Below are positions 5,167-35,546 of a stretch of 39,258 bases of DNA, piece after piece. The position numbers and the translations under genes were made by a program. The notes beneath the pieces were generated by a model. The model saw only the letters and a program-made list of their open reading frames with translations. It did no database searches and was not told the origin of the DNA. The DNA is from Terriglobales bacterium (lineage in GTDB: Bacteria > Acidobacteriota > Terriglobia > Terriglobales > Acidobacteriaceae). How positions within the stretch are numbered: position 1 is the first letter of the stretch; each line of letters starts with the position of its first letter. The stretch covers positions 1 through 39,258 of the forward strand of contig DATIBR010000181.1 of assembly GCA_035457425.1 (NCBI GenBank), in the 5' to 3' direction.

Positions 5167-6594
5167 TTATGCGCTCAAAGACTTCTCCACGATCTCGATG
5201 CCGGTCTTACGAAGGAACTCCTCGGGCGATTCGCCGCCGATGAGCACGAAGACCAGGTGGTTCGGGAGGGTGAGCGGCCGGCCGCGCACGTCCAGGTGGA
5301 CCTGGCCGGCGGTGATGCTGGTGACTCGCGCCCCGGTGAAGATTTGCACGCGGCCCTCGGCGCGCGCGGCTTCCAGCTTCTCGCGGTTGCGCTCGCGCAG
5401 ACGCGGGAAGTCGTCGCCACGGTGGCAGAGCGTCACGCGGTTCTTCCCGGAGCGGCTGAGGGCGAGCGCGGCTTCCACGGCGGAGTCGCCGCCGCCCACG
5501 ACGAGCGCGTCGAGATCGTCGTAGCTGTCGGCCTCGATGAGGCGATAGGAGACCTTGGGCAGTTCCTCGCCGGGCGCGCCGAGCTTGCGCGGCGAGCCGC
5601 GCTTCCCCATCGCCAGCACCACGTTACGCGCGCGGTAGTCGCCGGTCGCGGTGCGGACGTGGAAGCCGGCAGAGTTGCGTTCGACCGCGAGCACCTTCTC
5701 GTTGGTGCGGATCTGCACGCCGGTGTTGCGAATGATCGTCTCCCAGACGGAGAGCAGGGCTTCCTTGGTGCCGTCGCCGACGTAGAGCGTGCCGTAGAGC
5801 GGGATCTCGACGGGCTCGGCCATGAGGAATTTCTGCCGCGGATACTGGCGGATGGTGGCGGCGATCTCTCCCTGCTCGAGCGTGAGGTATCGCAGGCCGT
5901 GCTGCTGCGCGCTGAGCGACGCGCTCAGCCCAGCCGGGCCGGCGCCGACGATGGCGACGTCGTACATCTCGTCGGAAGCGGGGGCCGGCGCCTTCTGCAG
6001 GCGCGCGCGCAGGTGGTCGACCACGAGCTTGCCTTCGTTGATCGCGGTCTTGATGAGCCCCATGCCGCAGAGCTCGCCGACGATGAATACGCCCGGGATG
6101 TTGGTCTCGAAGTTCTCGCGCACCAGCGGCACGCGCATGGTCTGGAGCACGCCGCCGAAGGAAAGCGTGATGGCCTGCGTGGGGCAGGCCTCGGCGCACT
6201 TGGCGTGCCCGGTGCAGCGCTCGGGATGGCTGAGGATGGCCTTGCCGCCGTCGAGGGCGAGCGTGCCGGTCTCCGGGCAGACGTGGACGCAACTGCCACA
6301 GCCGATGCAGAGCGAGGCGTTGATGACGGGCTTCGGCGCGCCCGCCTTGCCCCCCGGGACGGACGCGGTCTGCTGCGGCGCCTGGTGGACGATCCACATC
6401 GCCATGGCGGCGCCGCAATGCGGGCAGAAGGCGACGCTTTTCTCCATCGGCTTGGCGCAGCGCGGGCACGGGCGCTGCGGCCTGGGCGGCAGAGCCGCGG
6501 CGTGCGGCTTGCCCGCAGTCAGTTTCTTCAAGTAGCCCCGAACGAAGAACAGCGTGAGGGCGCCGGCAAGCAGGAATGCGATCAGGGTGTCCAT
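5167..6594 (-). CDS. Iron-sulfur flavoprotein: TM anchor, zinc ribbon, ferredoxin domain, permuted TrxR-like domain
   Basis: This 475-residue protein has five parts. Residues 4-18 are a membrane helix. Cys43, 46, 57 and 60 form a zinc-ribbon-like CPRC...CPHC. Residues 96-138 are a two-cluster ferredoxin domain: Cys96, 99, 102 and 106, then Cys127, His130, Cys133 and Cys137. Residues 164-174 carry a TNIPGVFIVGE motif, which in thioredoxin reductases is C-terminal. Residues 211-475 contain the FAD site GAGPAG (217-222) and the NAD(P) site VVGGGDSAVEAA, ending soon after VFVLIGGESP. No CxxC redox disulfide is visible. It probably moves electrons between NAD(P)H, clusters and the adjacent b-type membrane protein. 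The ATG overlaps the preceding stop as TGATG, implying translational coupling. Confidence 0.85.
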   Translation of the reverse strand: MDTLIAFLLAGALTLFFVRGYLKKLTAGKPHAAALPPRPQRPCPRCAKPMEKSVAFCPHCGAAMAMWIVHQAPQQTASVPGGKAGAPKPVINASLCIGCGSCVHVCPETGTLALDGGKAILSHPERCTGHAKCAEACPTQAITLSFGGVLQTMRVPLVRENFETNIPGVFIVGELCGMGLIKTAINEGKLVVDHLRARLQKAPAPASDEMYDVAIVGAGPAGLSASLSAQQHGLRYLTLEQGEIAATIRQYPRQKFLMAEPVEIPLYGTLYVGDGTKEALLSVWETIIRNTGVQIRTNEKVLAVERNSAGFHVRTATGDYRARNVVLAMGKRGSPRKLGAPGEELPKVSYRLIEADSYDDLDALVVGGGDSAVEAALALSRSGKNRVTLCHRGDDFPRLRERNREKLEAARAEGRVQIFTGARVTSITAGQVHLDVRGRPLTLPNHLVFVLIGGESPEEFLRKTGIEIVEKSLSA

Positions 6595-7535
6595 CAGAAG
6601 AACCCGAACAGGACGACGACACCGATATGCAGCAGCGCGAGCACGGCGAAGGAGTAGCTGAACGGACGGTGGACGACGTGCCAGAGGTGAAAGATCTTGT
6701 GGGTGCGTTCGAGGAAGGCGATGCGCTTGGAGAGCGCAGAGCACAGGCGCGCGGTGTCGACGATGCGCTCCAGGTCGCGGTCGCCGGTGGCGAACAACCC
6801 GCCGAAAGAAAGCAGCGCGCCGCCGAAGCCGAGGGCGCGGCGGCGGAGCCGCGCCACGCGCAGCGGCCGCGCGAGGTCGAGCAGGAACATCTTCGCCACC
6901 GCGCGCAGCGCGCCCATCTCGCCGATGGCTCCGGCCGTGGGGACGTCGAAGAGCGGCGCGAGTTCGGCGGGCCGGAAGAGCCGCTGGCCGGCAAGCGCCT
7001 GCGTCAGCTCGTCCTGCTGCGTGCGCAGCTCCTTGAGCGAGACTTCCGCAGAGCTGAGCGAGCGCGGGATCTGGGCGTAGATGTAGCGGCCTACGATGCC
7101 GGAGAGCGCGACCGCCACCATGATCCAGAACGCGATGCCCGCGATGCCGCGGAACTTGAACGACGAGTGAAAGGCGATGACGAAGGGCGCGGTGAGCCCG
7201 AGGACGACGTGGAAGTCGAGCCAGTGGCGCGCCGAGCCGCGGCGCGCCAGCCACGGCACCCGCTTGCGGATGGGGTAGAGGTAGATGAGGAAGAACATCG
7301 CGGCGCCCAGCATGCCGAGGCGGATGCCGAGCGGGCCTCCGGGCTTGAGCTGCGCGTGCTGCGGCGAGAACGGGCGCTCCGCCCAGCTGGTGAGGTAGTA
7401 GGAGCGTCCGTAGGCGGCGAGCGCGGCGACCAGGAGCACGGCGGCGACGGTCGCCAGGAACAGGCGGCGGCGGTGCCAGCGCTCCGGGTCGACGCGGAAC
7501 TGCGCGTAGCCGGCAAGACTGAGCGGTGTGTTCAC
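6594..7535 (-). CDS. Integral membrane cytochrome b-like protein
   Basis: This 313-residue protein has about five membrane helices: near the N-terminus (LATVAAVLLVAALAAYG), GMLGAAMFFLIYLYPI, WLDFHVVLGLTAPFVIAFH, GIAFWIMVAVALSGIVG and the C-terminal SYSFAVLALLHIGVVVLFG. Several helices or their edges carry His (HWLDFH, AFHSSFK, HKIFHLWHVVH, LLH), as expected for two b-type haems in a cytochrome b561 or ferric-reductase-like bundle. A helical cytoplasmic segment sits in the middle. Its position between a periplasmic/outer-membrane multiheme set and a cytosolic flavoprotein suggests it carries electrons through the inner membrane. The start is GTG at 7535, overlapping the previous stop (GTGA). 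The haem-binding claim is inferred from His placement only. Confidence 0.75.
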   Translation of the reverse strand: MNTPLSLAGYAQFRVDPERWHRRRLFLATVAAVLLVAALAAYGRSYYLTSWAERPFSPQHAQLKPGGPLGIRLGMLGAAMFFLIYLYPIRKRVPWLARRGSARHWLDFHVVLGLTAPFVIAFHSSFKFRGIAGIAFWIMVAVALSGIVGRYIYAQIPRSLSSAEVSLKELRTQQDELTQALAGQRLFRPAELAPLFDVPTAGAIGEMGALRAVAKMFLLDLARPLRVARLRRRALGFGGALLSFGGLFATGDRDLERIVDTARLCSALSKRIAFLERTHKIFHLWHVVHRPFSYSFAVLALLHIGVVVLFGFF

Positions 7536-8374
7536 TTCTTCTTCCTTCTGGCCGGGACCTGCGCGGCCGGCGGCCGGCCGAGCGCGTCGTCCGCGACGGC
7601 CTGCTGGGTATCGACCATGAAGCTCTTGTAAGCGTCGAAGCGATGGGTGTTGCGCCAGTGCTGGCGCTGCGTCTCGACCTCGATGACGGCTTCCGCGGGC
7701 AGCGGATAGGCGCGCGGCCAGGCCGGCAGCCGCACGTTCGCGTAGCTGATGTCGGCGCGCAGCGAGCGCAGGCCGATGTCGCGCAGGTCGTTGGCGAGCG
7801 TGGCCTGGATGCGCGCGACCAGGCCGGTGTCTTCGTCGAGCCAGGCGTCGCCCTGGAGCGCGAGCGGATACTCGCGGCCCCGCAGCGCGAGCGCCACCGG
7901 CGTGCGCGCGCCTGGGATGGCGGTGAAGCGCAGGCGCGTGAGCCGGCGGCCGTCGACGAGTTCCTGGCCGGCTTCTTCGAACTGAAAGCTGGCGCGGTAA
8001 TACGGATGGAAGATGAGGAACAGCGTGGAGAAACCGTTGGTCATGAGCAGCGAGACGTTGTTGCGCGGCTTGCGGGCGGGGTCCTGCGGCAGGCGCGACT
8101 CGCTGAGCAGCAGGTCGTCGGCCGCGCCCTGGAGCAGGATGAGGTAGTTGTAGTCCGCCTGCTCGCTCGCCTGCACCTTGCCGTTGCGACCGAGCTTGAG
8201 CTGCGTGACGTGCTCGGTGCAGGTAACGTTCGAGACCTGCTCGAGATAAGCGTTCACCTGGCGGCTGGTGCGGTCCACGAGCCGCTCGACGGCGGGCGCT
8301 TCTCCGCGCGCGAACAGAGGCGCGAGTAGAAGCGCGAGACAGCCGGCGGCCAGCCGCCTAAGGCTTCGCGGCAT
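7532..8374 (-). CDS. Secreted protein of unknown function in the cytochrome operon
   Basis: This 280-residue protein has a signal peptide (MPRSLRRLAAGCLALLLAPL, cleaved near ARG). The mature part has no haem motif, cofactor motif or further membrane helix. It contains one Cys (NVTCTEHV) and many beta-strand-like segments, ending in a basic tail (VPARRKKK). The style recalls secreted proteins with an LolA/outer-membrane-lipoprotein-sorting-like fold, but I cannot assign a family. The ATG at 8374 has GGAGG six bases upstream; a GTG at 8375-8377 is the alternative. It overlaps the end of the beta-barrel gene by 17 bases, so it belongs to the same operon and is a candidate accessory subunit of the complex. 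Confidence 0.7.
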   Translation of the reverse strand: MPRSLRRLAAGCLALLLAPLFARGEAPAVERLVDRTSRQVNAYLEQVSNVTCTEHVTQLKLGRNGKVQASEQADYNYLILLQGAADDLLLSESRLPQDPARKPRNNVSLLMTNGFSTLFLIFHPYYRASFQFEEAGQELVDGRRLTRLRFTAIPGARTPVALALRGREYPLALQGDAWLDEDTGLVARIQATLANDLRDIGLRSLRADISYANVRLPAWPRAYPLPAEAVIEVETQRQHWRNTHRFDAYKSFMVDTQQAVADDALGRPPAAQVPARRKKK

Positions 8375-10091
8375 CACGCACCTCCTTGCGGCCGTCGTGC
8401 TTGCGGTTGTCGAAGCGGTAGCCGATCATCGCGTGCCACTGGGTGTAGTCCTGCACCACGCCGCGCGAGAGCGTGAAGCCGCCTTCGAGGAAGTAACGCG
8501 CGCCGAGGTTCACGTCGGCGCGCGCGTTGAGGAAGCGAGCGCCGTTGTCCACCGAGAACGGCGAGACGAACGACTGCGTGCCGACCTGCACCTCGCCCGT
8601 CAGGTTCTCGCCGAAGGTGCGCGAGAGCGAGAAGGTGCGGTAGGAGCCCTGGGCGAAGGAGCTGTCGAAGCGCGAGTAACGGAAGTCGGCGCGCAGGCCG
8701 GTCTTCCAGATCTGCGCCACGCTCACGCCGAGCATGTTGTTCCAGGAAGGCCGCGCGTCGTTGCTGTTGTTGCTGTGCCCCACGGCACCGTAGACGCTCA
8801 CGTGATGGGGCAGCTCGACGCGCGCCCCGACGTTGAAGCCCTGGAACAAGACTTTGTCGAGCAGGCCGGTGCCGACCAGTTGCGGGTCGAAGCGGGGGAC
8901 GTCGCGGAAGTAGTTGTGGCTGAAATCGAAGGTGACGCGCGGATGCGCCTGCACGCGCAGCGTGAAGAAGCTGCGCGAGAGGCCGGCGCCGGCGGGCGGC
9001 TGGCCGGCCGCGGTCCGCGGAGAGTCGAGCTGGAAGGAGTGGAAGAGCGAGACGCGGTTCTGGAAGGTGAGCGAGTTCTCGCCGAACGCGAACGGCCGGT
9101 CGATCTTCCAGCCATCGGTGACGATGCCCAGGCCGAAGGTGGAAGTGTAGTGGGTCTTTTCGTAGCTGCCGCCGTCGAAGCTGACGAACGAGCCGGCGAT
9201 GCGCCGGTTGAAGTCGTAACCGGAGACGGCGGGGTCGAGCGAGATGCCGGCGAAGATGCCCGCGGTCGCGCGCGGCGAGAGGCGGCGGCCGAAGTAGCCG
9301 CCGTCGATGGTGTCGAGGCTGCTGGCCCACGGCAGGTAGAGGCGGCCGAAGCCCATCACCCAGCTGGAGCCGGGATTGTCGTAGGTGAGCGCGAGGTGAT
9401 AGGTGCGGTCGATGAGTTCCTGCAGCGTCGCCTGCGAGTTCGAGGTGCGCGAATCCAGGCGGCCGCGCCAGTAGCCACGCAGGTTCCAGTAGGTGCCGTT
9501 GATGCGGGTGACGTCGGCGCGGAGCACCATGCCGAAGCTCGACGAGCTGGCGCCGCTGGCATTGTGCAGCGTGCTGTAGTCGAAGCCGACCCGGCCGCGC
9601 GCCTGGTTGATCTCCGGCAGCGGGGGGCGCGGGACCTCCTCGCGCGCTTCTTCGTCGAGCGGGTCGCCCTCGGAGAAGCTGACCACGGCGGGATACTGCC
9701 GCGTGTTGCTCAGGGTGCGGCGGGTGACGAGCGCTTCGACCTCGTCGCGCGGGAGCGTCGCGAAGTCGCCGGCGACCAGCTGGCGGGTGGCGGACTCGAT
9801 CTCGCAGACGGCCGAGGTCGCGGCGACGCTCGCGACTTTCAGGCGCGCGACGATGGGTGCTTCGTCGTCGGGGACGTCGGATGAGGCGCTCGCCGGCGCG
9901 GCCGAGGACGGCGAGACCTTCACCACCAGCTTCATGCCCTCGCTAAGGCCGGCGTTGCGGCCGCCTTCCAGGTAGACGGCATCGCCGGTGACGTAGCGAA
10001 CGCGGAAGCGCACTCGCATCGGCTCCTCCGGCGACTGGGCGAGCGCCGCCGTGGAGAGCAAAGTCAGGAAGAGGATGGAGAGCGAGCGCAT
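8358..10091 (-). CDS. Putative outer-membrane beta-barrel of the cytochrome operon
   Basis: This 577-residue protein has a signal peptide (MRSLSILFLTLLSTAALAQ). Residues about 25-130 form a small non-barrel domain (VRYVTGDAVYLEGGRNAGLSEG). The remainder is a long series of short amphipathic strands such as VGFDYSTLHN, YWNLRGYWRGRL, WVMGFGRLYLPW and VSVYGAVGHSNN, typical of a 16-22-strand barrel. It ends WHAMIGYRFDNRKHDG. No haem motifs are present. Its place immediately after two very large cytochromes matches the arrangement of porin-cytochrome conduits (MtrB- or Omb-type), in which a barrel holds a cytochrome across the outer membrane. I see no direct similarity to MtrB, so this is context-based. 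The start lies one base after the cytochrome stop. Confidence 0.75.
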   Translation of the reverse strand: MRSLSILFLTLLSTAALAQSPEEPMRVRFRVRYVTGDAVYLEGGRNAGLSEGMKLVVKVSPSSAAPASASSDVPDDEAPIVARLKVASVAATSAVCEIESATRQLVAGDFATLPRDEVEALVTRRTLSNTRQYPAVVSFSEGDPLDEEAREEVPRPPLPEINQARGRVGFDYSTLHNASGASSSSFGMVLRADVTRINGTYWNLRGYWRGRLDSRTSNSQATLQELIDRTYHLALTYDNPGSSWVMGFGRLYLPWASSLDTIDGGYFGRRLSPRATAGIFAGISLDPAVSGYDFNRRIAGSFVSFDGGSYEKTHYTSTFGLGIVTDGWKIDRPFAFGENSLTFQNRVSLFHSFQLDSPRTAAGQPPAGAGLSRSFFTLRVQAHPRVTFDFSHNYFRDVPRFDPQLVGTGLLDKVLFQGFNVGARVELPHHVSVYGAVGHSNNSNDARPSWNNMLGVSVAQIWKTGLRADFRYSRFDSSFAQGSYRTFSLSRTFGENLTGEVQVGTQSFVSPFSVDNGARFLNARADVNLGARYFLEGGFTLSRGVVQDYTQWHAMIGYRFDNRKHDGRKEVRDAAKP

Positions 10092-10092
10092 G

Positions 10093-11802
10093 TCAGTCGG
10101 CGGTCCCGTTGCGATGGCAGGTGTAGCAACTGGTCGGGGTGTAGGAGTATCCGCTGACGCCGGTGTGGTGCGGATCGGTCTGGGCGCGGTCGTGCGTGTG
10201 GCACGTGATGCAGGAGAAGACGGCGAAGTTCGACGAGTTGGTGTGGCAGTCGGCGCAGCTCGTCCACTTGCCGGCGTGCGTCCCGCTGTAGATGGGGAAC
10301 CAGGTGTGGTTGAAGGTGGCGCCCGACCAGGTCGTGGTGTTGTGGCACGTCTGGCAGGTGGTCGGGAAGGCAGCGGCGACGTGGTTGGGGTTCGTGGTCG
10401 AAGTGAAGGCCGCCTTGTGGCATGCGTAGCAGTCGGTCGGCGTGCCGGCGAACTGGTTGTTGATGTGGCAGCTCGTGCACGGCGTGTTGACGTGCGCTCC
10501 CGTAAGCGTGAAGCCGGTGAGGCTGTGATTGAACGAGGCCGGCGTCCAGGCCGAGGTCGAGTGGCAGACGGCGCAGTCGGTGGGGAAGCCGGCCGCCTTG
10601 TGGTTCGGGTTGGTGGTGGCGTCGTACTGCTTCTGATGGCACGAGGAGCAGGCCGAGCTCAGGCCGCTGTAGTTGCCGTTCACGTGACAGGTGGCGCACG
10701 TGAGGTTGCTGTGCGCGCCGGTGAGCGCGAAGCCGGTCTTGCTGTGGTCGAAGGAGGCGGGCGTCCAGGCGGTGGTCGCGTGGCAGATGGAGCAGTCTTT
10801 CGGGAAGCCCGCGGTGACGTGGTTCGGGTTGGTGGTCGCGTTGTAGTCCTTGAGGTGGCAGGACGCGCAGTCGGTCGGCGTGCCGCTGAAGTTGCCGTTG
10901 GCGTGGCAACTGTTGCAGTTCAGGTTGGCGTGGCCTCCGGTGAGCGGGAAGCTGGTGAAGCGCGCGTGGTCGAACTTCGCGTCGAGCCAGGTGGCGGTGC
11001 TGTGGCAGATGGCGCAGTCCTGCGGGAACTTCGCCTGCACGTGGTTGGGATTGGTGGTGGCGTTGAACTCCCTGGCGTGGCAGGCGAAGCAGTTGGCGGG
11101 CGTGCCCTTGAACCTGTTGTTGACGTGGCAGGCCGCGCAATCGAGCGTGGCGTGCGTGCCCGTGAGGGCGAATCCGGTGAAGCGCAGGTGATCGAACTTC
11201 GCGCCCAGCCAGGTGTCCATGGAGTGGCACGCGGTGCAATCGGTCGGGAAAGCGCTGTGGTCGACGGGCGCGCTCTTCGCGTCCTTGGCGTGACAGGAGT
11301 AGCAGACCGTGCTGAGACCGGGGAAGACGCCGGCAGCGGCGCTCTTGTGGCAATCGCCGCACTGCGCGGTGGAGTGCCCGCCGGTCAGCGGGAAGCGGTT
11401 GAAGTGCTTCTGGATGTCGTCGATGGAGACGCGCCAGCCGTTGACGGTGTGGCAGCGCTCGCAGCTCTTGCCGTTCTGTCCGCGATGGATGTCGGCGTGG
11501 CAGGCGGAGCAACTCTTGCCCACGTCGGTGAAGACCAGGCTGGCGTGGCACTGCATGCAGCCGACCTTGGCGTGCATGCCACGCAGCGGATAGCGCGTCT
11601 TGTCGTGATCGAACTCGGGGATGGCGCGGATCGGCTTCCATCCCGTAAAGGTGTGGCAGTTCTCGCAGCGGATGGCAAGCGGCCCGTGCGGGCTGCGCAC
11701 CGAGGCGCGCGGGATGCCGCCGCGCTCCTGCGCGCGCAGCGCGAGCCCCGCGCAACCCAGCACGGCGACGATCGTCACGAACGCGAGCGCTAGCCGGCGC
11801 AT
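10093..11802 (-). CDS. 22-haem c-type cytochrome with tandem three-haem modules
   Basis: This 569-residue protein has a signal peptide (MRRLALAFVTIVAVLGCAG, ending near LRAQ). I count 22 CXXCH motifs, about one per 26 residues. Residues 185-478 are four modules of 73-74 residues, each with three CXXCH plus conserved free His in FDH or FNH, G(T/G/A)H and NPNH that could be the distal ligands. A similar but shorter pattern precedes them, and a diverged copy follows. The wider family is cytochrome c3/c7-like, with the motif H..TGF.LTGAH....C..CH. The free His supply fits six-coordinate, low-potential haems for electron transport rather than catalysis. The ATG at 11802 follows AAGGGA; 36 upstream in-frame residues lack a signal and are excluded. 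Confidence 0.92.
   Translation of the reverse strand: MRRLALAFVTIVAVLGCAGLALRAQERGGIPRASVRSPHGPLAIRCENCHTFTGWKPIRAIPEFDHDKTRYPLRGMHAKVGCMQCHASLVFTDVGKSCSACHADIHRGQNGKSCERCHTVNGWRVSIDDIQKHFNRFPLTGGHSTAQCGDCHKSAAAGVFPGLSTVCYSCHAKDAKSAPVDHSAFPTDCTACHSMDTWLGAKFDHLRFTGFALTGTHATLDCAACHVNNRFKGTPANCFACHAREFNATTNPNHVQAKFPQDCAICHSTATWLDAKFDHARFTSFPLTGGHANLNCNSCHANGNFSGTPTDCASCHLKDYNATTNPNHVTAGFPKDCSICHATTAWTPASFDHSKTGFALTGAHSNLTCATCHVNGNYSGLSSACSSCHQKQYDATTNPNHKAAGFPTDCAVCHSTSAWTPASFNHSLTGFTLTGAHVNTPCTSCHINNQFAGTPTDCYACHKAAFTSTTNPNHVAAAFPTTCQTCHNTTTWSGATFNHTWFPIYSGTHAGKWTSCADCHTNSSNFAVFSCITCHTHDRAQTDPHHTGVSGYSYTPTSCYTCHRNGTAD
10369..11250 (-). repeat. Four tandem repeats encoding three-haem modules
   Basis: Inside the 22-haem cytochrome gene, units begin at 11250, 11028, 10806 and 10587 and are 222, 222, 219 and 219 bases long. 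Each encodes a unit starting FP-x-D-C-x-x-C-H and ending near ATTNPNH or STTNPNH. A fifth, diverged unit begins at 10368. Confidence 0.85.
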
Positions 11803-11829
11803 GTGTCCCTTCCCACCCGGCGTATGGAA

Positions 11830-11845
11830 TGCAATCCAGCAGCCA
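11830..11845 (-). promoter_or_regulatory. Sigma-54-like -24/-12 promoter before the 22-haem cytochrome gene
   Basis: Minus-strand TGGCTGCTGGATTGCA has the invariant GG, ten bases, then GC, plus a complete TTGCA at -12 and TGGC at -24. The predicted start is near 11819, 17 bases before the ATG and just ahead of the AAGGGA ribosome site. It lies in the 97-base gap between the two cytochrome genes. Confidence 0.5.
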
Positions 11846-11899
11846 GACTGCCGGGGCCATGGACCTTCGAGTCGTTCTGCCTGAGATCCATCACTTCCC

Positions 11900-13819
11900 T
11901 CACGAGCCACCGGCGACGGCGCCGTTGCCGTGGCAGACGTCGCAACGGACCGGCGTGGGCTTGTAGAACAGGACCTGCTCGCCCTCGATCTCGCGGCGCA
12001 GGACGTGGCAGCGCTTGCAGGCGACGTTCTCGTGCGCGCCCTTGAGCGAGAAGGCGAACTTTTCGTGGTCGATGAGCGACGGCCGCCACTTCATCGCGGT
12101 ATGGCACTCGGCGCAGCGGGTCACGCGGCCGGCGCCGGCGAACTGCGCGCCGTGCGGGTCGGCGTGGCACTCCTCGCATTGCGAGGGCGCGGCGCGGAAA
12201 TCCACCGCGAGCAGCTTGCGCTCCAGGTTCGGCGGGCGGTGGCACGACTCGCACGCGACCGCGCGGTGCGCACCGGCGAGCGCGAACTTGGTCGAGCCGT
12301 GGTCGAAGCGGACCAGGTCGTTCCACGCCTTGGTCGAGTGGCAGGCTTCGCAGCCGGCGGCCTTGCCGTCCGCGGCGATGCGCAGCATGCGCGCGGCGAA
12401 TTGCCCCTTGTGGGGATCTTCGTGGCAGGTGGTGCAGTTGAGCGAATCGAAGTGGTAGGCGGCGACCTCCAGCTTGCCGCGCGGCTTGTGGCACTCCATG
12501 CAGGCGACGGCGCGATGTGCGCCCGTGAGCGGGAACCTCCCCTGGTCGTGGCGCACGAGCGTGAAGCGCGTGAGGTGGAAGCTGCGCTCGTCGTGGCACT
12601 GCTCGCAGCGGTTCAGCAGCGGCGCGGCGGCGAACTGCGCGCGATGCGCGTCGGCGTGGCAGTCGAGGCACTGGCCGAACTTCACCTTGAAGCGCGTGGC
12701 CTTACCGGCGGGGGCGTGGCACTTCGCGCACGCGACGGTGGCGTGCGCGGCGCGCAGCGGGAAGCCGGTGCGGTCGTGCTCGGCGAGCGCGAACTTCGCC
12801 GGCTTGAAGCCCTCGACGGTGTGGCAGCCCTCGCAGGCGGCGCCGCCGGCGCGGGCGACGAACTGTCCGCCGTGCGGGTCGGGCTTGTGGCAGCTCGCGC
12901 AGGTGTCGTGCGCGATGGGCGTCTTGAAGTCGGCGGCGCGGTGGCAGCTCTGGCAGCCGACCTGGAGGTGCTTGCCGAGCAGCGGAAAGCCGGTCTTGCC
13001 GTGATCGAAGCGCGCGACGAAGCTGGTCTGTTTCCATCCGCCGGTGGAGTGGCAGGACTCGCAGGTCTGCTGCGCGAAGGCGGCCTTGTGCGGATCGCTG
13101 TGGCAGGCGGAACAGCGGTCGAAGCGCAGGCCGGTGTAGCGGATGGCGCCGTCCGGGCCGGGCGTGTGGCAGCTCTCGCAACGCACCTGGAGGTGGTCGC
13201 CCGTGAGCGGATAGCGCGTCTTCGCGTGGTCGAAGCGCGGCTTCCAGGTCTGCTCGCCATGGCACTGCAGGCAGTTCGCGCCGAGCTGTCCCTTGTGCTT
13301 GTCCTCGTGGCAACTGGTGCAGGTGCGCGACAAGCCGAGGAAGCTGTGTGCAGGATTCTTCAGCAGAGACCGCTCGGCGGCGACGATGCGCTGCGTGTTG
13401 TGGCACTGCGTGCAGTCGAGCGCTGCGTGCTTCCCTTCCAGGTTGAAGCCGGTGGTGGCGTGCTGGAAGGCGCGCTGGTCCCAGTGGATGACCGCGAAGT
13501 CCTCGCCGTTGTGCTCGGAGTGGCAGTGGATGCAGGCCTTGCTGTCGGCGCCCACGGGGACGTAGCCGGCGTGCAGGCCGCGGCGCTGCTCCAGCCGCAC
13601 GGCGATCTCGCGATGGCAGTCGAGACAGCGGAACTTTGCTGCGCCCGCGGAAACGGCGTGACACTGCGTGCAGCCCGCCGGTCCGCCCAGCGCTCGATGA
13701 GCCCGGGAAAGCGGGCCCGGCGAGAGCTGGGCAGCAGCGGGCAGCGACAGCACACACAGGAGCCCAAGGGCCAAGCCGGGGAGAACTCCTGGGTGACCCA
13801 GCCATTTCGCGGCGCACAC
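11900..13819 (-). CDS. 23-haem c-type cytochrome
   Basis: From the GTG at 13819 the protein is 639 residues with a hydrophobic signal (VLPGLALGLLCVLSLPAAAQ). I count 23 CXXCH motifs, many followed by an extra His (CHEDPH, CHADPH, CHSDPH), and recurring segments such as FDHGKTGFPLLGKH that supply free His. It is related to the 22-haem protein but more diverged, without exact tandem repeats. It likely acts as a periplasmic or cell-surface electron carrier and is exported unfolded for haem attachment. The start is uncertain: a TTG at 13894 preceded by AGGGGA would add 25 residues to the signal n-region. It heads the structural part of the operon, directly downstream of a sigma-54-like promoter. 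Confidence 0.9.
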   Translation of the reverse strand: MCAAKWLGHPGVLPGLALGLLCVLSLPAAAQLSPGPLSRAHRALGGPAGCTQCHAVSAGAAKFRCLDCHREIAVRLEQRRGLHAGYVPVGADSKACIHCHSEHNGEDFAVIHWDQRAFQHATTGFNLEGKHAALDCTQCHNTQRIVAAERSLLKNPAHSFLGLSRTCTSCHEDKHKGQLGANCLQCHGEQTWKPRFDHAKTRYPLTGDHLQVRCESCHTPGPDGAIRYTGLRFDRCSACHSDPHKAAFAQQTCESCHSTGGWKQTSFVARFDHGKTGFPLLGKHLQVGCQSCHRAADFKTPIAHDTCASCHKPDPHGGQFVARAGGAACEGCHTVEGFKPAKFALAEHDRTGFPLRAAHATVACAKCHAPAGKATRFKVKFGQCLDCHADAHRAQFAAAPLLNRCEQCHDERSFHLTRFTLVRHDQGRFPLTGAHRAVACMECHKPRGKLEVAAYHFDSLNCTTCHEDPHKGQFAARMLRIAADGKAAGCEACHSTKAWNDLVRFDHGSTKFALAGAHRAVACESCHRPPNLERKLLAVDFRAAPSQCEECHADPHGAQFAGAGRVTRCAECHTAMKWRPSLIDHEKFAFSLKGAHENVACKRCHVLRREIEGEQVLFYKPTPVRCDVCHGNGAVAGGS

Positions 13820-14039: not shown

Positions 14040-14732
14040 CTAGTCGGGGTCCTCCGGCTTCTCGGTTCCCTGGCGCTCGGAGTCGCGCTCTCCACGCTCT
14101 GACTCGCGACCGGGGGTGCGCCGCTGATCGTCGTCGAACAGATAGCTGCGGTCCGGGCGTTCCGGCAACTGGTCGCGCTGCACGGTGGTGTGGAAGCCGG
14201 GGCGCAGCAACACCGGCCGATCGGGCGCGAGGAGCGACGCGACGGCGACGAGCCCGTCATGGACCTCGACGCGGGTCTTCCCTTTCTCGTTCACCGAGAC
14301 ATCGAACTCGGTGCCGCGCACGGTGATGACCGCTGTCGGAGTGCCCATGCGGAACGAAGGCGCGCTGCCGGTGCGCTTGCGGACCTTGGCGTACACACGG
14401 CCGAGCAGCAGGTCGATGAGGCGCGCGAGGGCGCCTTCAGGAGCCTTCACGACCACGCGGCTGTTCTTGCGGATGAGGACCTGGGAGCCGTCTTCGAGAT
14501 GAAGCAGGGCGCTCCCCTTGCGGATCTCGAGGATGGTCTCGGGCGCGAGCACCTGGCCGCGCTGCGGCTTGGCGGCGGCGGCGTTGGGCGGCTGCACGGT
14601 CACCTCGCCCTTGATGTCGTCGATGGTCGCGGAGCCCGCGACGAGTGTTGCGGGTTCGGGGGTCTGGGCCGCGGGCAGGCCCGCGGCGAGCAGCACCACG
14701 AGCGCGACGAAAAGCGCGCGTATCGGTCTCAT
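14040..14732 (-). CDS. FecR-domain secreted protein
   Basis: This 230-residue protein has a signal peptide (MRPIRALFVALVVLLAAGLPA). The FecR fold core is at about residues 35-185: IDDIKGEVTVQPP, GSALLHLEDGSQVLIRKNSRVVV, and the signature TPTAVITVRGTEFDVSVNEKGKTRVEVHDG. The C-terminus is highly charged (RRTPGRESERGERDSERQ). FecR domains act in envelope signalling. This one lacks the anti-sigma anchor of classical FecR and is probably a periplasmic protein. Its ATG overlaps the kinase stop (ATGA), and the kinase has an extracytoplasmic CHASE2 domain. A functional pairing of the two is an inference from that coupling. Confidence 0.85.
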   Translation of the reverse strand: MRPIRALFVALVVLLAAGLPAAQTPEPATLVAGSATIDDIKGEVTVQPPNAAAAKPQRGQVLAPETILEIRKGSALLHLEDGSQVLIRKNSRVVVKAPEGALARLIDLLLGRVYAKVRKRTGSAPSFRMGTPTAVITVRGTEFDVSVNEKGKTRVEVHDGLVAVASLLAPDRPVLLRPGFHTTVQRDQLPERPDRSYLFDDDQRRTPGRESERGERDSERQGTEKPEDPD

Positions 14733-16995
14733 GCGATTCCTTTCGCGGCGAGCGCGACGGCTAGCGGCAGCCGGATCTCGAACAGCGTCTCGCCGCGCAT
14801 GGTGGCAGCACGCACCGTGCCGCCATGCTGTTCGAGGATGCGTTGCACGAACGTGAGTCCCAGCCCGGTGCCGGGCGCGGCGCTCTCCGCCGCGGCGGTG
14901 CGGTAAAACGGGTCGAAGAGGCGCGGCACCAACTCGGGCGGGATCTCGCGGCCGCGGTTGTAGACGCCGAGCACGGCGTCGTCGCTCTCATGCGAGCAGA
15001 CGATGCGGATGTCGGTGCCGGGATCAGCGTACTTGAGCGCATTGCTCACCAGGTTCAGCACCGCGCCGGAGAGCAGCGAGACGTCGCCCCGCACCGTGCA
15101 GGCGGCGGAGACGGCCAGCGAGAGGCGCATCCCGGCGGAATCGGCGAGCGGTTGCAGCAGGTCCACGATGCGCTGCGCTACCGCGCCGAGCGACACTTCT
15201 TCCAGCCGCAGGGGACGCGCGCCGGTCTCGAGCCGCAACACGTCGAGGTAGCTGTTGATGAGCTCGAGCAGGCGGCGCGACTCGAGCAGGATGGTCCCGG
15301 GCGCCGAGGCCGCCGCCGGGACCCCAGGATGCTCGAGCATCAGCTGCGCGAATCCCTGGATGGCGACGAGCGGCGTGCGCAGCTCGTGCGTGACGAAGCC
15401 CAGCGCCTCGGCGCGCGCGCGGTCGCGCTCCAGCCGCGTGCGCAGGCTAGCCAAGCGCACGATAGTGCCGCCCGCCGGCGAGAGCGTGGTGGGCAGCATC
15501 GGCACGAGGTGCAAGGCGTAGAGTTCGTCGCGCACTTCGACTTCGGCCTCCGTGACGCCGGCTCCCAGCGCGAGCTCCGCGCGCAAGCGGGCAAGGTCCA
15601 GCGGCGGCTCCTGCGGGAAGGCGGCGGCGAACGCGCGATTGCGGAGCAGGAGCTCTCCCTGCGGGTCGAAGACCGCGACCGGGTCGGCGGTGGACTCCAA
15701 CAATGCCTGGTGCAATTCGTAGGCCGAGCCCAGCTCGATCTGCAGCCGACGCAGCACCGCCAGCCGCCAGAAGAGGTCGTTGGGATGCCGGCCGGCAGGC
15801 TTGGCATGGCGCGCTTCCAGCCAGCGCTGCAGCTCCTCGAGCTGGCGCGCGACGCTGCGCTCCACCACCAGGAGGTCGGCGCTGTAGGCCAGCAGCGGCC
15901 CGAGCACGATCGCGAGCAGCGGCGCCCCGAAGGAAAGCAGGCGCGAGCCGAACAGGAAGACCCCGAGCCCGAACAGGTAGAACGCGGCGGTGGCGGCCGC
16001 GAGCGCCGGCAAGACACGCCACCCGACCGCGTGGCGCGAGAGCGTGACGATCGTCAGGCAGGTGGCGAACAGGAACAGCGCGTTCACCCACCACGGCAGG
16101 TCGAACAGGGAGCGCCCGGTGAGGATGCCGTCGAGCATCTGGGCGTGGACCTCGACGCCGGGCGTGGGCAGCTCGCCGCTGAAGGGAGTAGCGATGCGGT
16201 CGCCGAGCTCGGTGGGGCCGAAGCCGACCAGCACCGTGCGGTCGCGCACCGCCCCCAGGTCTGCGCCTTCCAGCACGGCGGCGGCGGAGATGCGGTGGAA
16301 GTCGGCGCGGCGGTAGGCGATGGGCACCAGTACCGGCTGCGCGATGGCGATCGAGCCGGGCGATTCCCGCTCGGCGATGCCGTAAGCGCGCAGGTAGCGC
16401 CCCGTGCGCGCGGGGTCGGCGAGGCGCGCGACCTCCACGGGAAAGGCCCAACGCGCGCCTTCGGGCGTGAGCTGCAGCGGCGGGAAGCGGCGGCAGACAC
16501 CGTCGAGGTCCAGCACGGCTTGCGCGTGCCCGACGGCGGCGTGCTCCGCGAAGGCCGGCAGAGGCTCGATCCAGCGAGGCCCGTCGGGAAAGCGGCCGAT
16601 CTTGTCCACCAGCACGGCCGTGCCGCCACTGCGCGCCAGCGCCGCGGCGAGCGCGCGGTCGGCTTCCGGGGTCTGCGGCTCGGCCAGCAGAATGTCCAGT
16701 CCGATGACGCGCGCGCCGGCGATGTGGATCCTTTCCGTCAGCTCAGCGAGCCGGGTGCGTGACCACGGCCAACGGCCGTAGCGCTGCAGGCTGTCGTCGT
16801 CGATGAGGACGAGCACGACCGGCGAGCGCTGCGGCGGCTGCGGCGCGGCGCGGAAGTAGGTGTCGTCGACGCGCAGCTGCCACTCGCGCGCCAGCGGCAG
16901 CAGGCTGAGCGCGCTTACCAGCAGGAAGAGCGATACCGCCAGGATGAGGTCGCGCCTTCCGGTGCGGCGTCGCGGGAATCGGCGGGTGGCGGCCA

Positions 16996-16996
<1 letters not shown>
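14729..16996 (-). CDS. CHASE2-domain sensor histidine kinase
   Basis: This 755-residue protein has an N-terminal membrane helix (about 17-36). Residues about 37-300 form an extracytoplasmic CHASE2 domain (VVLVLIDDDSLQRYGRWPW, ARVIGLDILLAEP, DRTVLVGFGPTELGD, PGVEVHAQMLDGIL). Three membrane helices (about 305-380) and a PAS-like linker with VFDPQGELLLRNRAF follow. The HisKA phospho-acceptor is His537 in HELRTPL. The ATPase domain has the N-box NLVSNALKY and G-box GTGLGLTFVQ. It should autophosphorylate and pass phosphate to the response regulator encoded just upstream, with which it overlaps as TGATG. The CHASE2 ligand is unknown; location suggests a periplasmic or redox-linked signal. Confidence 0.92.
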
Positions 16997-18360
<1,364 letters not shown>

Positions 18361-18389
18361 CAGTTTTTCGCAGTCCTTTTCATAACTGT

Positions 18390-18409
18390 ACTCTCGCGCG
18401 CACGAGAGT
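18390..18409. promoter_or_regulatory. Inverted repeat in the ntrC/crp divergent region
   Basis: ACTCTCG-N6-CGAGAGT is a perfect seven-base inverted repeat with a six-base spacer, 30-50 bases upstream of the response-regulator start and about 100 bases upstream of the CRP-family start. A shorter repeat with the same spacing, TGCTT-N6-AAGCA (18488-18503), abuts the crp start. Either could be an operator. Confidence 0.45.
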
Positions 18410-18508
18410 GCGGCGTACCGTCGGACATGCCCGAGCGGACGATGCGCGGTGTGTGGTGAAACGCAACAGTCCGTTTGGTCCGCCGCTTGCTTACAGACAA
18501 GCAGTCCA

Positions 18509-19282
18509 ATGGCCACAACTCTGCCAGCCCCGAACCTTTCTTGCTGTGACCGCTATCACCCGCCGTTCGAAGGCCTGAAACGCGGGACGCCGACGCGCTG
18601 CTACGCGCCAGGCGCGTTGCTGTTCCACGAGGGGGCTGGCGCGCGCGGCGTGTACCTGCTGGCGAACGGACGGGTGCGGCTGACCGTCGGCTCCTCCGCC
18701 GGAAAGATGCTGATCCTGGGAACGGCGCGGCCGGGCGAGCTGCTGGGCGCCAGCGCGTGCCTGGCCGGGCAGGCGCATGCGACCAACGCGCAGGCGCTGA
18801 CGGCGTGCGAGGCGCGCTTTCTCGCGCGCGAGGATTTCCTGCGCCTGGCGCAGAGCGACCATGCGTTCTGCCTGGCGCTGACGCGGTCGCTGAGCGAGGG
18901 CCTGCACGACGCGTGCCGCGGCCTGAGCCTGCTCGGGCTCTCGCGCAGCGCGGAGTCGCGGCTGGCCGGCGTGTTGCTGCGGATGCTGGAGGAGCGCGGC
19001 GGCGCGCGGCCGGCAAGCGCCGAGCTGCGGCTCACGCACGAGGCGATGTCACAGATGATCGACAGCTCACGCGAGACGGTTTCGCGGGTGCTCTCGCGCC
19101 TGCGGCGTGCCGGCGCCATCCGGACCGTCGGGACGAGGCTGACCGTCTGCGATCCCGCCTACTTGCACCGGCTGGCGAATGGCGAGCGCGGTTCGGGGAG
19201 CGTCCTACGTGGGACCAAGGAACTGGCCGCCATCGACGCGCAGGACCTGGCCGGTCACGCGCTTGCCGGCAGGCCCGCATAG
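18509..19282 (+). CDS. CRP/FNR-family transcriptional regulator
   Basis: This 257-residue protein has a cyclic-nucleotide-type beta-roll (about 25-125), a long dimer helix (about 130-160) and a winged helix (about 172-220). The recognition helix SSRETVSRVL places Arg188, Glu189 and Arg193 at the positions E. coli CRP uses to read GTGA half-sites. In the ligand pocket, the segment equivalent to CRP's cAMP-binding GEL...ERSA reads GAS...AHAT, so the Glu, Arg and Ser contacts are missing and cAMP is unlikely. No FNR-type four-Cys cluster is seen, though Cys12 and Cys13 are near the N-terminus. The last 26 codons overlap the opposing dehydrogenase gene. It is a good candidate regulator of the benzoyl-CoA operon. 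The start codon is uncertain (poor ribosome site). Confidence 0.88.
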   Translation: MATTLPAPNLSCCDRYHPPFEGLKRGTPTRCYAPGALLFHEGAGARGVYLLANGRVRLTVGSSAGKMLILGTARPGELLGASACLAGQAHATNAQALTACEARFLAREDFLRLAQSDHAFCLALTRSLSEGLHDACRGLSLLGLSRSAESRLAGVLLRMLEERGGARPASAELRLTHEAMSQMIDSSRETVSRVLSRLRRAGAIRTVGTRLTVCDPAYLHRLANGERGSGSVLRGTKELAAIDAQDLAGHALAGRPA

Positions 19283-19924
19283 ATAAAGGACCGCGGAGGC
19301 GATGTCCTCGGGGTCGAGGAAGCTGCCGACCAGGCTTTCGGCGAGGGCGGCGTCGCGGATCTCCTGCGGCACCTTCTCGGTCAGCGGCGTGCGCACCCAG
19401 CCGGGCTCGATGACGTTCACCAGGATGCCGAAGCGGCCTGTCTCGCGCGCCACCGATTTCGCCATCCCGATGAGGCCGGCCTTGCTGGCGGAGTATGCGG
19501 CCGTGCCGAACTTGCCGCGCGAGCCGTTGATGGAGCCGATGAGCACCGCGCGGCCGCTGTTTCTCTGGCGCATGTGGGGGATCGCGGAACGCAGCAGGAG
19601 GAAGGCGCCGCGCAGGTTGACCGACTGTACGAGATCCCAGTCTTCCGGGGTGAGCTTCCACACGACCGCGTCGCGCGAGATGCCGGCGGCGTGGACGGCG
19701 ATGTCGAGGCGGCCGTGCTGCTTGGCAACGTGCTCAACGGCCGCGGTGACCGAGGCTTCGTGGCGGACGTCGCAGTGCACGTAGGGGAGCTTCGCGGGCG
19801 GCGCGGCGAGATCCAGCGAATACGCGGTCGCGCCGGCCGCGGCGAGCGCTTGCACGATGGCGGCGCCGATGGCGCCCGAGCCACCGGTGACGATCGCGAC
19901 TTGTCCCGCCAGTTCCTGCGGCAT
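19205..19924 (-). CDS. Short-chain dehydrogenase/reductase, candidate 3-hydroxypimeloyl-CoA dehydrogenase
   Basis: This 239-residue classical SDR has a cofactor site VTGGSGAIGAAI near the N-terminus, the HAAG variant of NNAG, catalytic Ser in IGSINGS, and YSASK with the Tyr and Lys. The C-terminus ends VLRVDGGQF, as in FabG-like enzymes. It is the last gene of the benzoyl-CoA operon, 16 bases after the dienoyl-CoA hydratase gene. The pathway's ring-opening product is 3-hydroxypimeloyl-CoA, whose oxidation to 3-oxopimeloyl-CoA is the next expected step. I therefore infer that role, but an SDR's substrate cannot be read from sequence. Position 19924 is the start that begins directly at the Rossmann fold. 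Its 3' end overlaps the opposing regulator gene by 78 bases. Confidence 0.85.
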   Translation of the reverse strand: MPQELAGQVAIVTGGSGAIGAAIVQALAAAGATAYSLDLAAPPAKLPYVHCDVRHEASVTAAVEHVAKQHGRLDIAVHAAGISRDAVVWKLTPEDWDLVQSVNLRGAFLLLRSAIPHMRQRNSGRAVLIGSINGSRGKFGTAAYSASKAGLIGMAKSVARETGRFGILVNVIEPGWVRTPLTEKVPQEIRDAALAESLVGSFLDPEDIASAVLYLCGPAGKRVTGQVLRVDGGQFLGPT

Positions 19925-19940
19925 GGGCGTCAAAGATAAA

Positions 19941-20747
19941 TCAGTCGAGGGCTTCGGCCATCGACTTCTTGTACCAACGCGGCTCGCGCTTCTCCAGGAA
20001 GGCCTGGATGCCTTCGACGGCATCGTGGGCCGCCATCAGCTCCTCGAGGTACATACCTTCGCAGTGCGGCAGGTCGTAGTCGACCGCGTGCAGGACGAGA
20101 GTGCGCGCGGCCAGCGCGGCGTAGCGCAGGCCCGTGGCCGAGCGCGGGACGAAATGCGTCTCGAGATGCGTGCCGACCAGGTCTTCGAGCCCGCCCGCGG
20201 GCGCGACCGCGGCGACCAGGCCCATTGCAAACGCGTCGTGCGCGGAGCAGCTCTCGCCCGTCAGCAGCAGCGTGGCGGCGCGCGAGGCGCCCACGCGCAC
20301 CGGCAGGATCGCCGAGGCCGCCGGCGCGAATACGCCCAGCTTGATCTCGGGCGCGGCGAAGACGGCGGTGTCGTCGGCGAGGATCAGGTCGCAGGCCAGT
20401 GCCAGCTCGAAGCCGCCGCCCAGGCACTGGCCGTGTACGGCCGCGAGCACCGGGGCCGGCATGCGCACGATGCGCCCGATGAGCGCGTGCAACGCCGCGA
20501 GCGTTTCCGCGATGTGCTCCGGCAGATGCTCCTGCACGCTGGCGCCGAAGCTGAAATGCGGCCCCTCGGCGGCGAGCACTACGGCGCACAGCTCGCGCTG
20601 CGCGCAGCGGTCAAGGGCGGAGAACAACTCCGCGATCATCGCGCGGTCCACGATGTTCGCCTTGGGCGCGTTCAGCGTGATGCGCGCCGTGCGCTCGGCT
20701 TCGTTGAACTCCAGGCGGACCTTGCTGTAGCTCGTGGTCTCGGTCAT
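19941..20747 (-). CDS. dch: Cyclohexa-1,5-diene-1-carbonyl-CoA hydratase
   Basis: This 268-residue enoyl-CoA hydratase/isomerase-family protein has FSFGASVQEHLPEH (oxyanion-hole and loop region) and VHGQCLGGGFELALACDLILA. The VQEHLPEH loop is characteristic of dienoyl-CoA hydratases of the anaerobic benzoyl-CoA pathway. It adds water to the dienoyl-CoA made by benzoyl-CoA reductase, giving 6-hydroxycyclohex-1-ene-1-carbonyl-CoA. The ATG overlaps the stop of the hydrolase gene (ATGA). It lies with the genes for the next two steps and for the reductase, which makes this assignment firm. Confidence 0.9.
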   Translation of the reverse strand: MTETTSYSKVRLEFNEAERTARITLNAPKANIVDRAMIAELFSALDRCAQRELCAVVLAAEGPHFSFGASVQEHLPEHIAETLAALHALIGRIVRMPAPVLAAVHGQCLGGGFELALACDLILADDTAVFAAPEIKLGVFAPAASAILPVRVGASRAATLLLTGESCSAHDAFAMGLVAAVAPAGGLEDLVGTHLETHFVPRSATGLRYAALAARTLVLHAVDYDLPHCEGMYLEELMAAHDAVEGIQAFLEKREPRWYKKSMAEALD

Positions 20748-25834: not shown

Positions 25835-25842
25835 CCTGTCTC

Positions 25843-27003: not shown

Positions 27004-27036
27004 GGAGTATGAATACCCCCGCTGCGGAACGTCACC

Positions 27037-27052
27037 TGTGACGGCGGTCACC
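27037..27052. promoter_or_regulatory. CRP-type operator, bcrC-proximal
   Basis: TGTGACGGCGGTCACC matches the CRP pattern TGTGA-N6-TCACA at nine of ten positions. Its 14-base core differs by one base from the second site at 27210-27223. A further GTCACC lies six bases to its left (27031-27036). Its centre is 41.5 bases upstream of the bcrC ATG, the standard distance for a class II activator from a transcription start. Confidence 0.6.
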
Positions 27053-27208
27053 GGGCATTGTGAGGCTCCCCTGCCGGCGAAGATCGGCCGCGCAGAGTGC
27101 GGGCGGGATCGCCACCGTCCAGTCCGAGGCGTCAGTCGTGTCCCGAAGAACGCCCGCGATACTTGCTCCCGTAATGGTCGTCGACCAGAGGCCAAATAAA
27201 CATCCTGT

Positions 27209-28838: not shown

Positions 28839-28842
28839 CGTC

Positions 28843-30478: not shown

Positions 30479-31778
<1,300 letters not shown>

Positions 31779-31782
<4 letters not shown>

Positions 31783-35545: not shown

Positions 35546-35546
35546 G

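Follow-up and report, generated by a model that had tools for sequence, protein, structure and literature searches.

Six closely packed genes of an acidobacterium probably encode a PCC3-type electron conduit that crosses the whole cell envelope and is coupled to a cytosolic flavoprotein oxidizing NAD(P)H or ferredoxin. PCC3 is a published porin-cytochrome class, which we compare with the set below. The genes lie on the minus strand, from 13819 to 5167, of a 39,258-nt stretch (the window) of a 3.14-Mb draft genome of a Terriglobales bacterium (192 contigs, 96.5% complete). The gene set is likely to be a conserved trans-envelope conduit, and on balance we favour NAD(P)H or ferredoxin, oxidized through the flavoprotein, as its electron source. 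An earlier note, made from the sequence alone, had read six overlapping or near-touching genes here, with 23 and 22 haem motifs in the two cytochromes. All six are present among the open reading frames of the window, their coordinates and gaps (−17 to 97 bases) agree with that reading, and a recount of CXXCH motifs again gives 23 (11900-13819) and 22 (10093-11802). In order of transcription, the genes encode:

11900..13819, minus strand: exported c-type cytochrome with 23 CXXCH motifs (the 23-haem or first cytochrome); start GTG 13819 or TTG 13774
10093..11802, minus strand: exported c-type cytochrome with 22 CXXCH motifs in three-haem repeats (the 22-haem or second cytochrome)
8358..10091, minus strand: outer-membrane beta-barrel with 22 predicted strands and a small N-terminal beta domain (AlphaFold2 model, profile matches)
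7532..8374, minus strand: secreted protein of no assigned family, a proposed assembly factor (conserved in order-sample loci)
6594..7535, minus strand: inner-membrane protein (IMP) with five predicted transmembrane helices and two proposed b haems (motifs, model)
5167..6594, minus strand: membrane-tethered protein with zinc-ribbon, two-cluster ferredoxin and YpdA-type FAD-NAD(P) parts (the flavoprotein; Pfam, solved relatives)

One base separates the stop of the 22-haem gene from the start of the barrel gene. The secreted-protein gene overlaps the barrel gene by 17 bases, the IMP gene overlaps the secreted-protein gene by 4 and the flavoprotein gene overlaps the IMP gene by 1. With ATG 11802 as the likely, signal-peptide-like start of the 22-haem gene, 97 bases lie between the two cytochrome genes. 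Both cytochrome frames were judged to be coding from their codon bias, with a third-position GC content (GC3) of 0.89 in each. Pfam models for cytochrome c7/c3 domains matched both cytochromes, and Pyr_redox_3 and Fer4 domains were found in the flavoprotein; the barrel, the secreted protein and the IMP gave no Pfam match above cut-off. Three cytochrome c assembly matches are present in the host genome.

Co-inheritance of the gene set in Acidobacteriota

Profiles of three components were run against 200 genomes of the host's order, its own genome included (the order sample). The IMP profile (threshold E 1e-5) matched 48 of them. Strong matches, at E 4.9e-88 or better and at least 50% identity, were found in 34, and the 14 weak ones, at about 30% identity, belong to a different family. 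The barrel profile (E 1e-10) and the flavoprotein profile (E 1e-60) each matched 34 of the 200 genomes, and a set comparison showed that the genomes with strong IMP, barrel and flavoprotein matches are the same 34. This identity indicates that the gene set is more than a chance assembly. The one same-genus genome listed (90% complete) had no IMP, barrel or flavoprotein match.

We then examined the 33 other strong order-sample loci (L031-L063). The 23-haem type of cytochrome was present in 30 of these stretches, the second cytochrome in 31, the barrel in 32, the secreted protein and the IMP in all 33 and the flavoprotein in 32. All six components were found in 28, two of the five incomplete loci being short contigs (L043, L060). 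Barrel, secreted protein, IMP and flavoprotein kept the same order and strand in 31 of the 33. The earlier note had suggested looking for the gene set in other genomes and had taken clusters lacking the barrel as a rule to speak against a conduit. The co-occurrence is there in the identical 34 genomes, and such clusters are not the rule: the single stretch without a barrel (L053, genome G077) has it on another contig, adjoining a 46-haem cytochrome (L246).

A second set comprised the best 80 of 218 confirmed IMP relatives in named genomes, partly the same genomes as in the order sample and all with acidobacterial titles. Complete or partial clusters are present, for instance, in Acidobacteria bacterium AB60 and Occallatibacter savannae. 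Here the 23-haem cytochrome was found at 50 loci, the second cytochrome at 58, the barrel at 74, the secreted protein at 76, the IMP at 80 and the flavoprotein at 79. All six components were found at 45, many of the loci being cut by contig ends, and the shared order and strand of barrel, secreted protein, IMP and flavoprotein at 66, many of the others again being cut. Across the phylum, 70 of 396 Acidobacteriota genomes matched the IMP profile at E 1e-10. In 40 further stretches from this sample, the barrel was matched in 17, the flavoprotein in 24 (some only distantly) and the secreted protein in 3; most of the remaining phylum stretches have a gene order unlike that of the window.

Extra barrel paralogues lie beside 7- or 16-haem frames (L247, L248, L249, L250) in genomes that also hold the main cluster, and judged by these the outer module may have been duplicated and reused. 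The distinct, weak IMP family is found beside decahaem proteins (L225-L228, L064-L067, L070); of these, L225-L228 also have a second decahaem frame, of 1147-1221 residues, and a flavoprotein match (E about 1e-70) nearby.

One cytochrome of nearly constant and one of variable haem number

Haem numbers were counted in complete frames of at least 13 haems from the named and phylum loci, the window and a plasmid of Emticicia (Bacteroidota), which is described below. Open-ended frames, order-sample loci (as duplicates) and frames with fewer than 13 haems were excluded, the last being L086 (11 and 12, apparently a split 23), L115 (9) and L207 (10). Of 68 complete relatives of the first cytochrome, 58 have 23 haems, five have 24, four have 20 and one has 21. 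Within the order sample, 24 of 25 complete frames have 23; the exception, L062, is a 19-haem frame with a 4-haem frame just upstream. In an alignment of 17 proteins from both phyla, selected for having 23 haems, all 23 motifs are collinear, and the 23 motif histidines plus exactly 23 further histidines are invariant. Because the number of extra invariant histidines is exactly 23, there is one candidate distal ligand per haem, so that all 23 haems could have a distal histidine. A profile search of solved structures with the 23-haem protein gave no more than partial matches, almost all of them to further multihaem cytochromes.

The second cytochrome has 15-61 haems (median 31, n=71), and the complete 10-haem one at L207 extends the true range to 10. 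Its haem number equals 1 modulo 3 in 52 of the 71 (p about 4e-12, with related proteins treated as independent) and in 25 of 30 from the order sample, whose genomes are shared with the named set. A unit of three haems, spaced by about 33-16-25 residues, is repeated in the second cytochromes of both the window and Emticicia, suggesting that the repeat underlies this preference. By analogy with the PCC3 model, and as the variable cytochrome adjoins the barrel, we propose that the 23-haem protein would serve as the periplasmic wire and the 22-haem protein as the extracellular one. Elsewhere in the host genome (G000), further cytochrome c7-type matches lie on contigs C50, C172, C153, C161, C10 and C74; on contig 50, frames of 512 and 1004 residues of this type are about 7 kb apart.

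The barrel and the secreted protein

The AlphaFold2 model of the barrel, with a mean predicted local distance difference test score (pLDDT) of 70.3, has 22 strands between residues 164 and 561, after a small beta domain. Its best matches in VIA-align were TonB-dependent receptors and OprD-type porins: 22-strand TonB receptors reached Z 16.8 over 354 residues at a root-mean-square deviation of 5.1, tied with the smaller OprD-type porins. Foldseek listed generic large barrels, ushers first. TonB receptors, which are among the best fits, hold a plug domain, and room for a cytochrome inside the modelled barrel is therefore plausible. No MtrB chain was among the 50 rows listed by Foldseek or VIA-align, which excludes nothing. 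Pfam contains an MtrB/PioB family model; none of 20 barrel sequences, including that of the window, matched this family at E up to 0.1.

The secreted protein was present at all 33 order-sample loci but in only 3 of the 40 stretches further away in the phylum, and gave no convincing Pfam or NCBIfam family. As it is found in so few of the phylum stretches, it is outside the conduit core. The earlier claim of a trans-envelope conduit with every layer encoded gains support from the co-inheritance (34 of 200 genomes).

The inner-membrane protein

The IMP carries a well-conserved set of motifs. Among 39 IMPs, the weak family being left out, two HX13H motifs and SGxxG were found in all and two WX3HX13H motifs in 38; the IMP of the window has SGxxG and both WX3HX13H. 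Its AlphaFold2 model (pLDDT 91.8) has long helices at 19-42, 68-84, 102-123, 130-155 and 253-309, and model and hydropathy together predict five transmembrane helices. We propose that it binds two b haems, with H109/H289 and H123/H303 as candidate ligands. Arginine and lysine cluster at 90-103 and 223-233, between predicted helices 2-3 and 4-5. By the positive-inside rule, basic loops lie on the cytosolic side, so these loops suggest that H109/H289 would be near the cytosol and H123/H303 near the periplasm.

Relatives of the IMP are hard to name. The Pfam model Ferric_reduct matches 10 of 22 family members (best E 0.0023), and a profile search of solved structures returned no credible relative. 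Cytochrome b561, DUOX1 and fumarate reductase cytochrome b appeared as fold relatives of the model only among unrelated helical proteins (DUOX1, 6wxu: Z 6.7 over 160 residues), and we do not trust them. The protein holds one cysteine.

The flavoprotein and two classes of inner-membrane protein

The flavoprotein has an N-terminal membrane anchor and matches Pyr_redox_3 (1.2e-44) and Fer4_10 (7e-11) in Pfam. Its nearest solved relatives are a YpdA bacillithiol disulfide reductase (YpdA/Bdr, 7a7b) and thioredoxin reductases; thioredoxin-reductase-type ferredoxin-NADP reductases follow further down the list. Of 47 flavoproteins, 46 have no CxxC pair after the FAD motif, and the pair picked up in the remaining one (L202) belongs to the ferredoxin motif. 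Without this redox pair, disulfide chemistry is a poorer fit than electron transfer to a partner. The first cluster motif, CxxCxxCxxxC, is present in 46 of the 47. Histidine takes the second ligand position of the second cluster in 43 of 47, and none has cysteine there, so that a His-ligated [4Fe-4S] or a [3Fe-4S] cluster is possible. The pyridine-nucleotide donor might be NADH or NADPH, and we keep both options.

A tree of 44 IMPs and four outgroup sequences, rooted on the weak family, contained a clade of 11 (support 1.0) from loci without the flavoprotein. In this clade the first cytochrome has 24 haems in all 5 complete cases; in the rest of the tree 23 is the number throughout, apart from three cases with 20 and the 19-haem frame of L062. 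The flavoprotein-bearing IMPs do not form one clade, and their join with the clade of 11 is poorly supported. We searched 32 whole genomes. Outside the clade, the flavoprotein was present in 21 of 21, even where it is not beside the IMP; one of these genomes (G204) has a broken IMP frame and stands outside the tree. Inside the clade, a full-length flavoprotein was present in 0 of 11: ten had no match at E 1e-50, and the eleventh had a partial match without the ferredoxin part. With 21 of 21 outside and none of 11 inside the clade, presence of the flavoprotein is tied to the IMP lineage. The link to NAD(P)H, which had been called unusual from the window alone, thereby gains genomic support. Comparing IMP residues between the flavoprotein-bearing and flavoprotein-free sets revealed a few clade-specific positions but no interpretable quinone or docking site.

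A related gene set on a Bacteroidota plasmid

Five of the six components recur, rearranged, on plasmid pEMTOL02 of Emticicia oligotrophica (Bacteroidota). It encodes homologues of the IMP and the flavoprotein, cytochromes with 23 and 40 CXXCH motifs and a 538-residue barrel homologue (best E 2.8e-15), and a gene for a 256-residue lipoprotein-like product is also present. A cytochrome c biogenesis (ccsA) gene (L151, 6821-9907) precedes the conduit genes, so that the plasmid may carry its own haem-attachment step.

Seven plasmid records were found with the IMP, but a query coverage of 80% or more was reached in Emticicia alone, the one plasmid also matched with the 23-haem protein. In the Bradyrhizobium and Methylophaga plasmid regions, a small cytochrome adjoins a shorter protein, 'iron reductase' or hypothetical, and these regions were set aside as an apparently different system. 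Among IMG/VR viral contigs, the IMP profile gave 8 candidate stretches, none of them confirmed.

Neighbouring genes in the window

Directly upstream of the cluster and on the same strand are genes for a FecR-domain protein, a CHASE2 histidine kinase and an NtrC-type regulator (14040-18450). Among the 34 loci, kinase and FecR genes lie upstream of the cluster only in the window, L031, L032 and L063; other kinase or regulator matches in L052, L056 and L059 lie elsewhere. The best sigma-54 promoter site upstream of the operon scored 8/11 and was unconvincing. Downstream DUF2490, solute-binding and propeller genes were considered as members of the system and rejected, as they had no match in relatives L031-L070.

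Benzoyl-CoA degradation genes occupy 19205-27195 on the minus strand. 6-oxocyclohex-1-ene-1-carbonyl-CoA hydratase and 6-hydroxycyclohex-1-ene-1-carbonyl-CoA dehydrogenase scored above their cut-offs, and subunits like benzoyl-CoA reductase C, A and D below theirs; the genes may represent a user of low-potential reductant adjoining the conduit. Genes like those of an NAD(P)-dependent hydrogenase or sulfhydrogenase (beta, gamma, delta, alpha) follow on the plus strand at 27269-31782, below the NCBIfam cut-offs, and a frame read as HypF-like lies at 35469-37820.

Discussion

The published system that most resembles the gene set is PCC3, a class the earlier note did not name when it likened the layout to porin-cytochrome systems. 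Published systems are compared here as excerpts of the cited papers describe them. He et al. (2017) describe PCC3 as a porin, an IMP and two cytochromes with medians of 34 and 21 haems (PMC5566968). Cytochromes much larger than the classical ones, which the earlier note had stressed, are therefore not new. As in PCC3, there is a porin with two very large cytochromes (the second family has a median of 31, n=71, and the first a mode of 23, in 58 of 68). The IMP likewise carries the signature given for PCC3 and PCC4, namely about 300 residues, five helices, SGxxG and two WX3HX13H (PMC5566968), its five helices here being predicted.

The set differs from PCC3 in several ways. In the excerpts of PMC5566968 and PMC12442390, PCC3 has four genes and no NAD(P)-linked subunit, and PMC8788666 likewise describes it without a flavoprotein, whereas here the same 34 of 200 genomes that have the strong IMP and the barrel also have a ferredoxin/FAD/NAD(P) protein. 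The first cytochrome has mostly 23 haems, against 21, 24 or 27 in the first-type (periplasmic) cytochromes of Gallionellaceae PCC3 (PMC10734462). The barrel may also be smaller, as PCC3 porins reach 42 predicted strands, against 22 in our moderately confident model (pLDDT 70.3). Finally, PCC3 is listed in Alpha-, Beta- and Gammaproteobacteria (PMC5566968), whereas the phyla here are Acidobacteriota and Bacteroidota. As the four-gene composition does not fit and the comparison rests on descriptions rather than sequence homology, the gene set is best called one that would work like PCC3, kept apart from PCC3 proper. By the published descriptions only, proteobacterial PCC3, with 21, 24 or 27 haems and described without a flavoprotein, looks like our flavoprotein-free class. 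A search of the open-access literature, in excerpts, found no description of the six-gene set and no match for PCC3 together with Acidobacteriota.

Other systems share single traits. PCC4 has the IMP motif set, and one of its subgroups has an Fe-S protein adjoining the IMP, but it has three periplasmic cytochromes and no extracellular one, as excerpted (PMC5566968), in place of the two very large ones here (22 and 23 haems). In group 1 decahaem porin-cytochrome clusters, from a set of metagenome-assembled genomes that includes Acidobacteriota, a ferredoxin-NADP+ reductase gene is reported in proximity in 7 of 11, proximity being all that is reported of it (PMC13264449). Those clusters share a porin, a multihaem cytochrome and a nearby reductase with our set but have decahaem cytochromes of 4-5 kb, not 23- and 22-haem ones. 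A porin-cytochrome cluster with an NAD(P)-linked neighbour thus has some precedent. Our guess is that L225-L228, with their distant IMP, flavoprotein match and decahaem proteins, are of this decahaem kind. MtrCAB, MtoAB and PioAB share the general layout of a cytochrome in a barrel plus an outer cytochrome. Unlike theirs, however, the barrel here has no MtrB/PioB-family Pfam match, and the 23-haem protein scores 51.7 bits against the DmsE-family decahaem model, whose cut-off is 192.2. The IMP would work like the NAD(P)H oxidase/ferric reductase domain, in which a cytosolic NAD(P)H flavoprotein feeds two haems b, placed between two helices, and these deliver the electrons to the far side; He et al. 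compare the PCC3/PCC4 IMP with these haem helices (PMC5566968). The evidence of sequence and fold kinship to that domain is weak or absent, however, and the flavoprotein here is a separate protein of the YpdA/thioredoxin-reductase kind with a ferredoxin domain. For other reported systems, Holophaga has MtrB- and ExtB/E-type porins and Burkholderiales a 24/49-haem pair (PMC7399161), and wastewater Acidobacteriota have multihaem proteins of unknown substrate (PMC8100337).

In the mechanism we propose, electrons would pass from NAD(P)H to the FAD and then to the Fe-S clusters of the tethered flavoprotein, and on to the cytosol-side and then the periplasm-side haem b of the IMP. The IMP would reduce the 23-haem cytochrome, a putative wire of fixed length, with bis-histidine haems, that would extend from the inner membrane into the barrel. 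From there electrons would enter the 22-haem extracellular cytochrome, whose length would be set by its number of three-haem repeats, and leave to an acceptor outside the cell, which could be Fe(III), Mn(IV), humics or another cell. Outward flow would be the more favourable direction, given the low potential of NAD(P)H and a membrane that is negative inside.

Several observations weigh against this reading. The IMP scores 14.6 bits against Ferric_reduct, below the cut-off of 28, and Foldseek gave it no match below E 0.001. The barrel model is only moderately confident and of a single chain. The flavoprotein gene of L063 is on the opposite strand at a distance of about 12 kb, and L032/L073 (one genome) and L113 have no 23-haem gene beside the second cytochrome. 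L053/L108, L141 and L143 have the 23-haem cytochrome, IMP and flavoprotein but neither barrel nor second cytochrome in the stretch, and the genome of L143 has no barrel match anywhere; these loci indicate that an inner set (23-haem cytochrome, IMP, flavoprotein) and an outer set (second cytochrome, barrel) can separate. The clade of 11 shows that this type of IMP can be served otherwise than by the flavoprotein. Of the published evidence, He et al. proposed a quinone link for IMPs with the PCC3/PCC4 signature (PMC5566968), and the PCC3 clusters of Sideroxydans go down, not up, on Fe(II) (PMC8788666).

The strongest alternative, which we consider unlikely, is a quinone-linked PCC3. Here the IMP would trade electrons with the quinone pool, and the flavoprotein would have an accessory role, such as reducing quinone or another carrier. 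This alternative would account for the IMP signature, for which that quinone-active role was proposed (PMC5566968), and for the 11 IMPs whose genomes have no full-length flavoprotein. The flavoprotein is nevertheless present in 34 of 34 strong-IMP order genomes and 21 of 21 phylum genomes, often beside the IMP. A direct partner fits its presence in every genome examined of the other lineages better than an accessory does.

Electron uptake, in which electrons from Fe(II), a cathode or a partner cell would flow inward and the flavoprotein would reduce NAD(P)+ or ferredoxin, is less probable still. PCC3 was first described in iron oxidizers (Gallionellaceae, Leptothrix and others; PMC5566968), and multihaem conduits are reversible in principle, as is said of Mto/Mtr (PMC10734462). 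Transfer onto NAD(P)+ would, however, be uphill from most mineral donors and against the membrane potential, and as a matter of context the aromatic-degradation and NAD(P)-type hydrogenase genes of the window fit a reductant-producing cell.

We regard as very improbable that the cytochromes are an electron store or periplasmic buffer to which the barrel is incidental. The loci without a nearby barrel would suit such a store, above all L143. Yet the barrel is present in all 34 strong-IMP order genomes, even where relocated, there beside the 46-haem cytochrome, and in the L141 genome another contig (L239) carries a barrel together with a 13-haem frame, the secreted protein and an IMP. Least credible is that flavoprotein and IMP aid maturation by supplying periplasmic reductant for the cytochrome cysteines before haem attachment: disulfide reductases are among the nearest solved relatives and the two cytochromes, with 45 motifs between them, need 90 reduced cysteines, but the flavoproteins have no CxxC pair after the FAD motif beyond the ferredoxin motif of the 47th, the IMP has one cysteine, and the 24-haem clade needs as many reduced cysteines yet has no full-length flavoprotein.

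Beyond the NAD(P)H- or ferredoxin-coupled conduit itself, we put forward a fuller reading tentatively, as a little more doubtful than not. The system would be a quinone-independent, outward NAD(P)H/ferredoxin oxidase across the whole envelope, with a fixed 23-haem, all-bis-histidine ruler of the periplasm and an outer wire built in three-haem units. It would occur in two phyla, a plasmid-borne copy included, as the NAD(P)-linked counterpart of the flavoprotein-free, 24-haem, PCC3-like class.

Quinol is generally regarded as the electron source of those Gram-negative conduits that have been studied. Trans-envelope wires are known already; coupling one to NAD(P)H instead of membrane quinones would be new. 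If true, coupling to NAD(P)H or ferredoxin would make the conduit an electron valve around the respiratory chain. The split between flavoprotein-bearing loci, mostly with 23 haems, and flavoprotein-free loci with 24 makes the question of the donor directly testable, and a fixed inner wire joined to an outer one that grows step-wise would offer a natural series for relating haem number to conduction length. Acidobacteriota, with the set in 34 of 200 genomes of the order, would gain a defined candidate for extracellular respiration.

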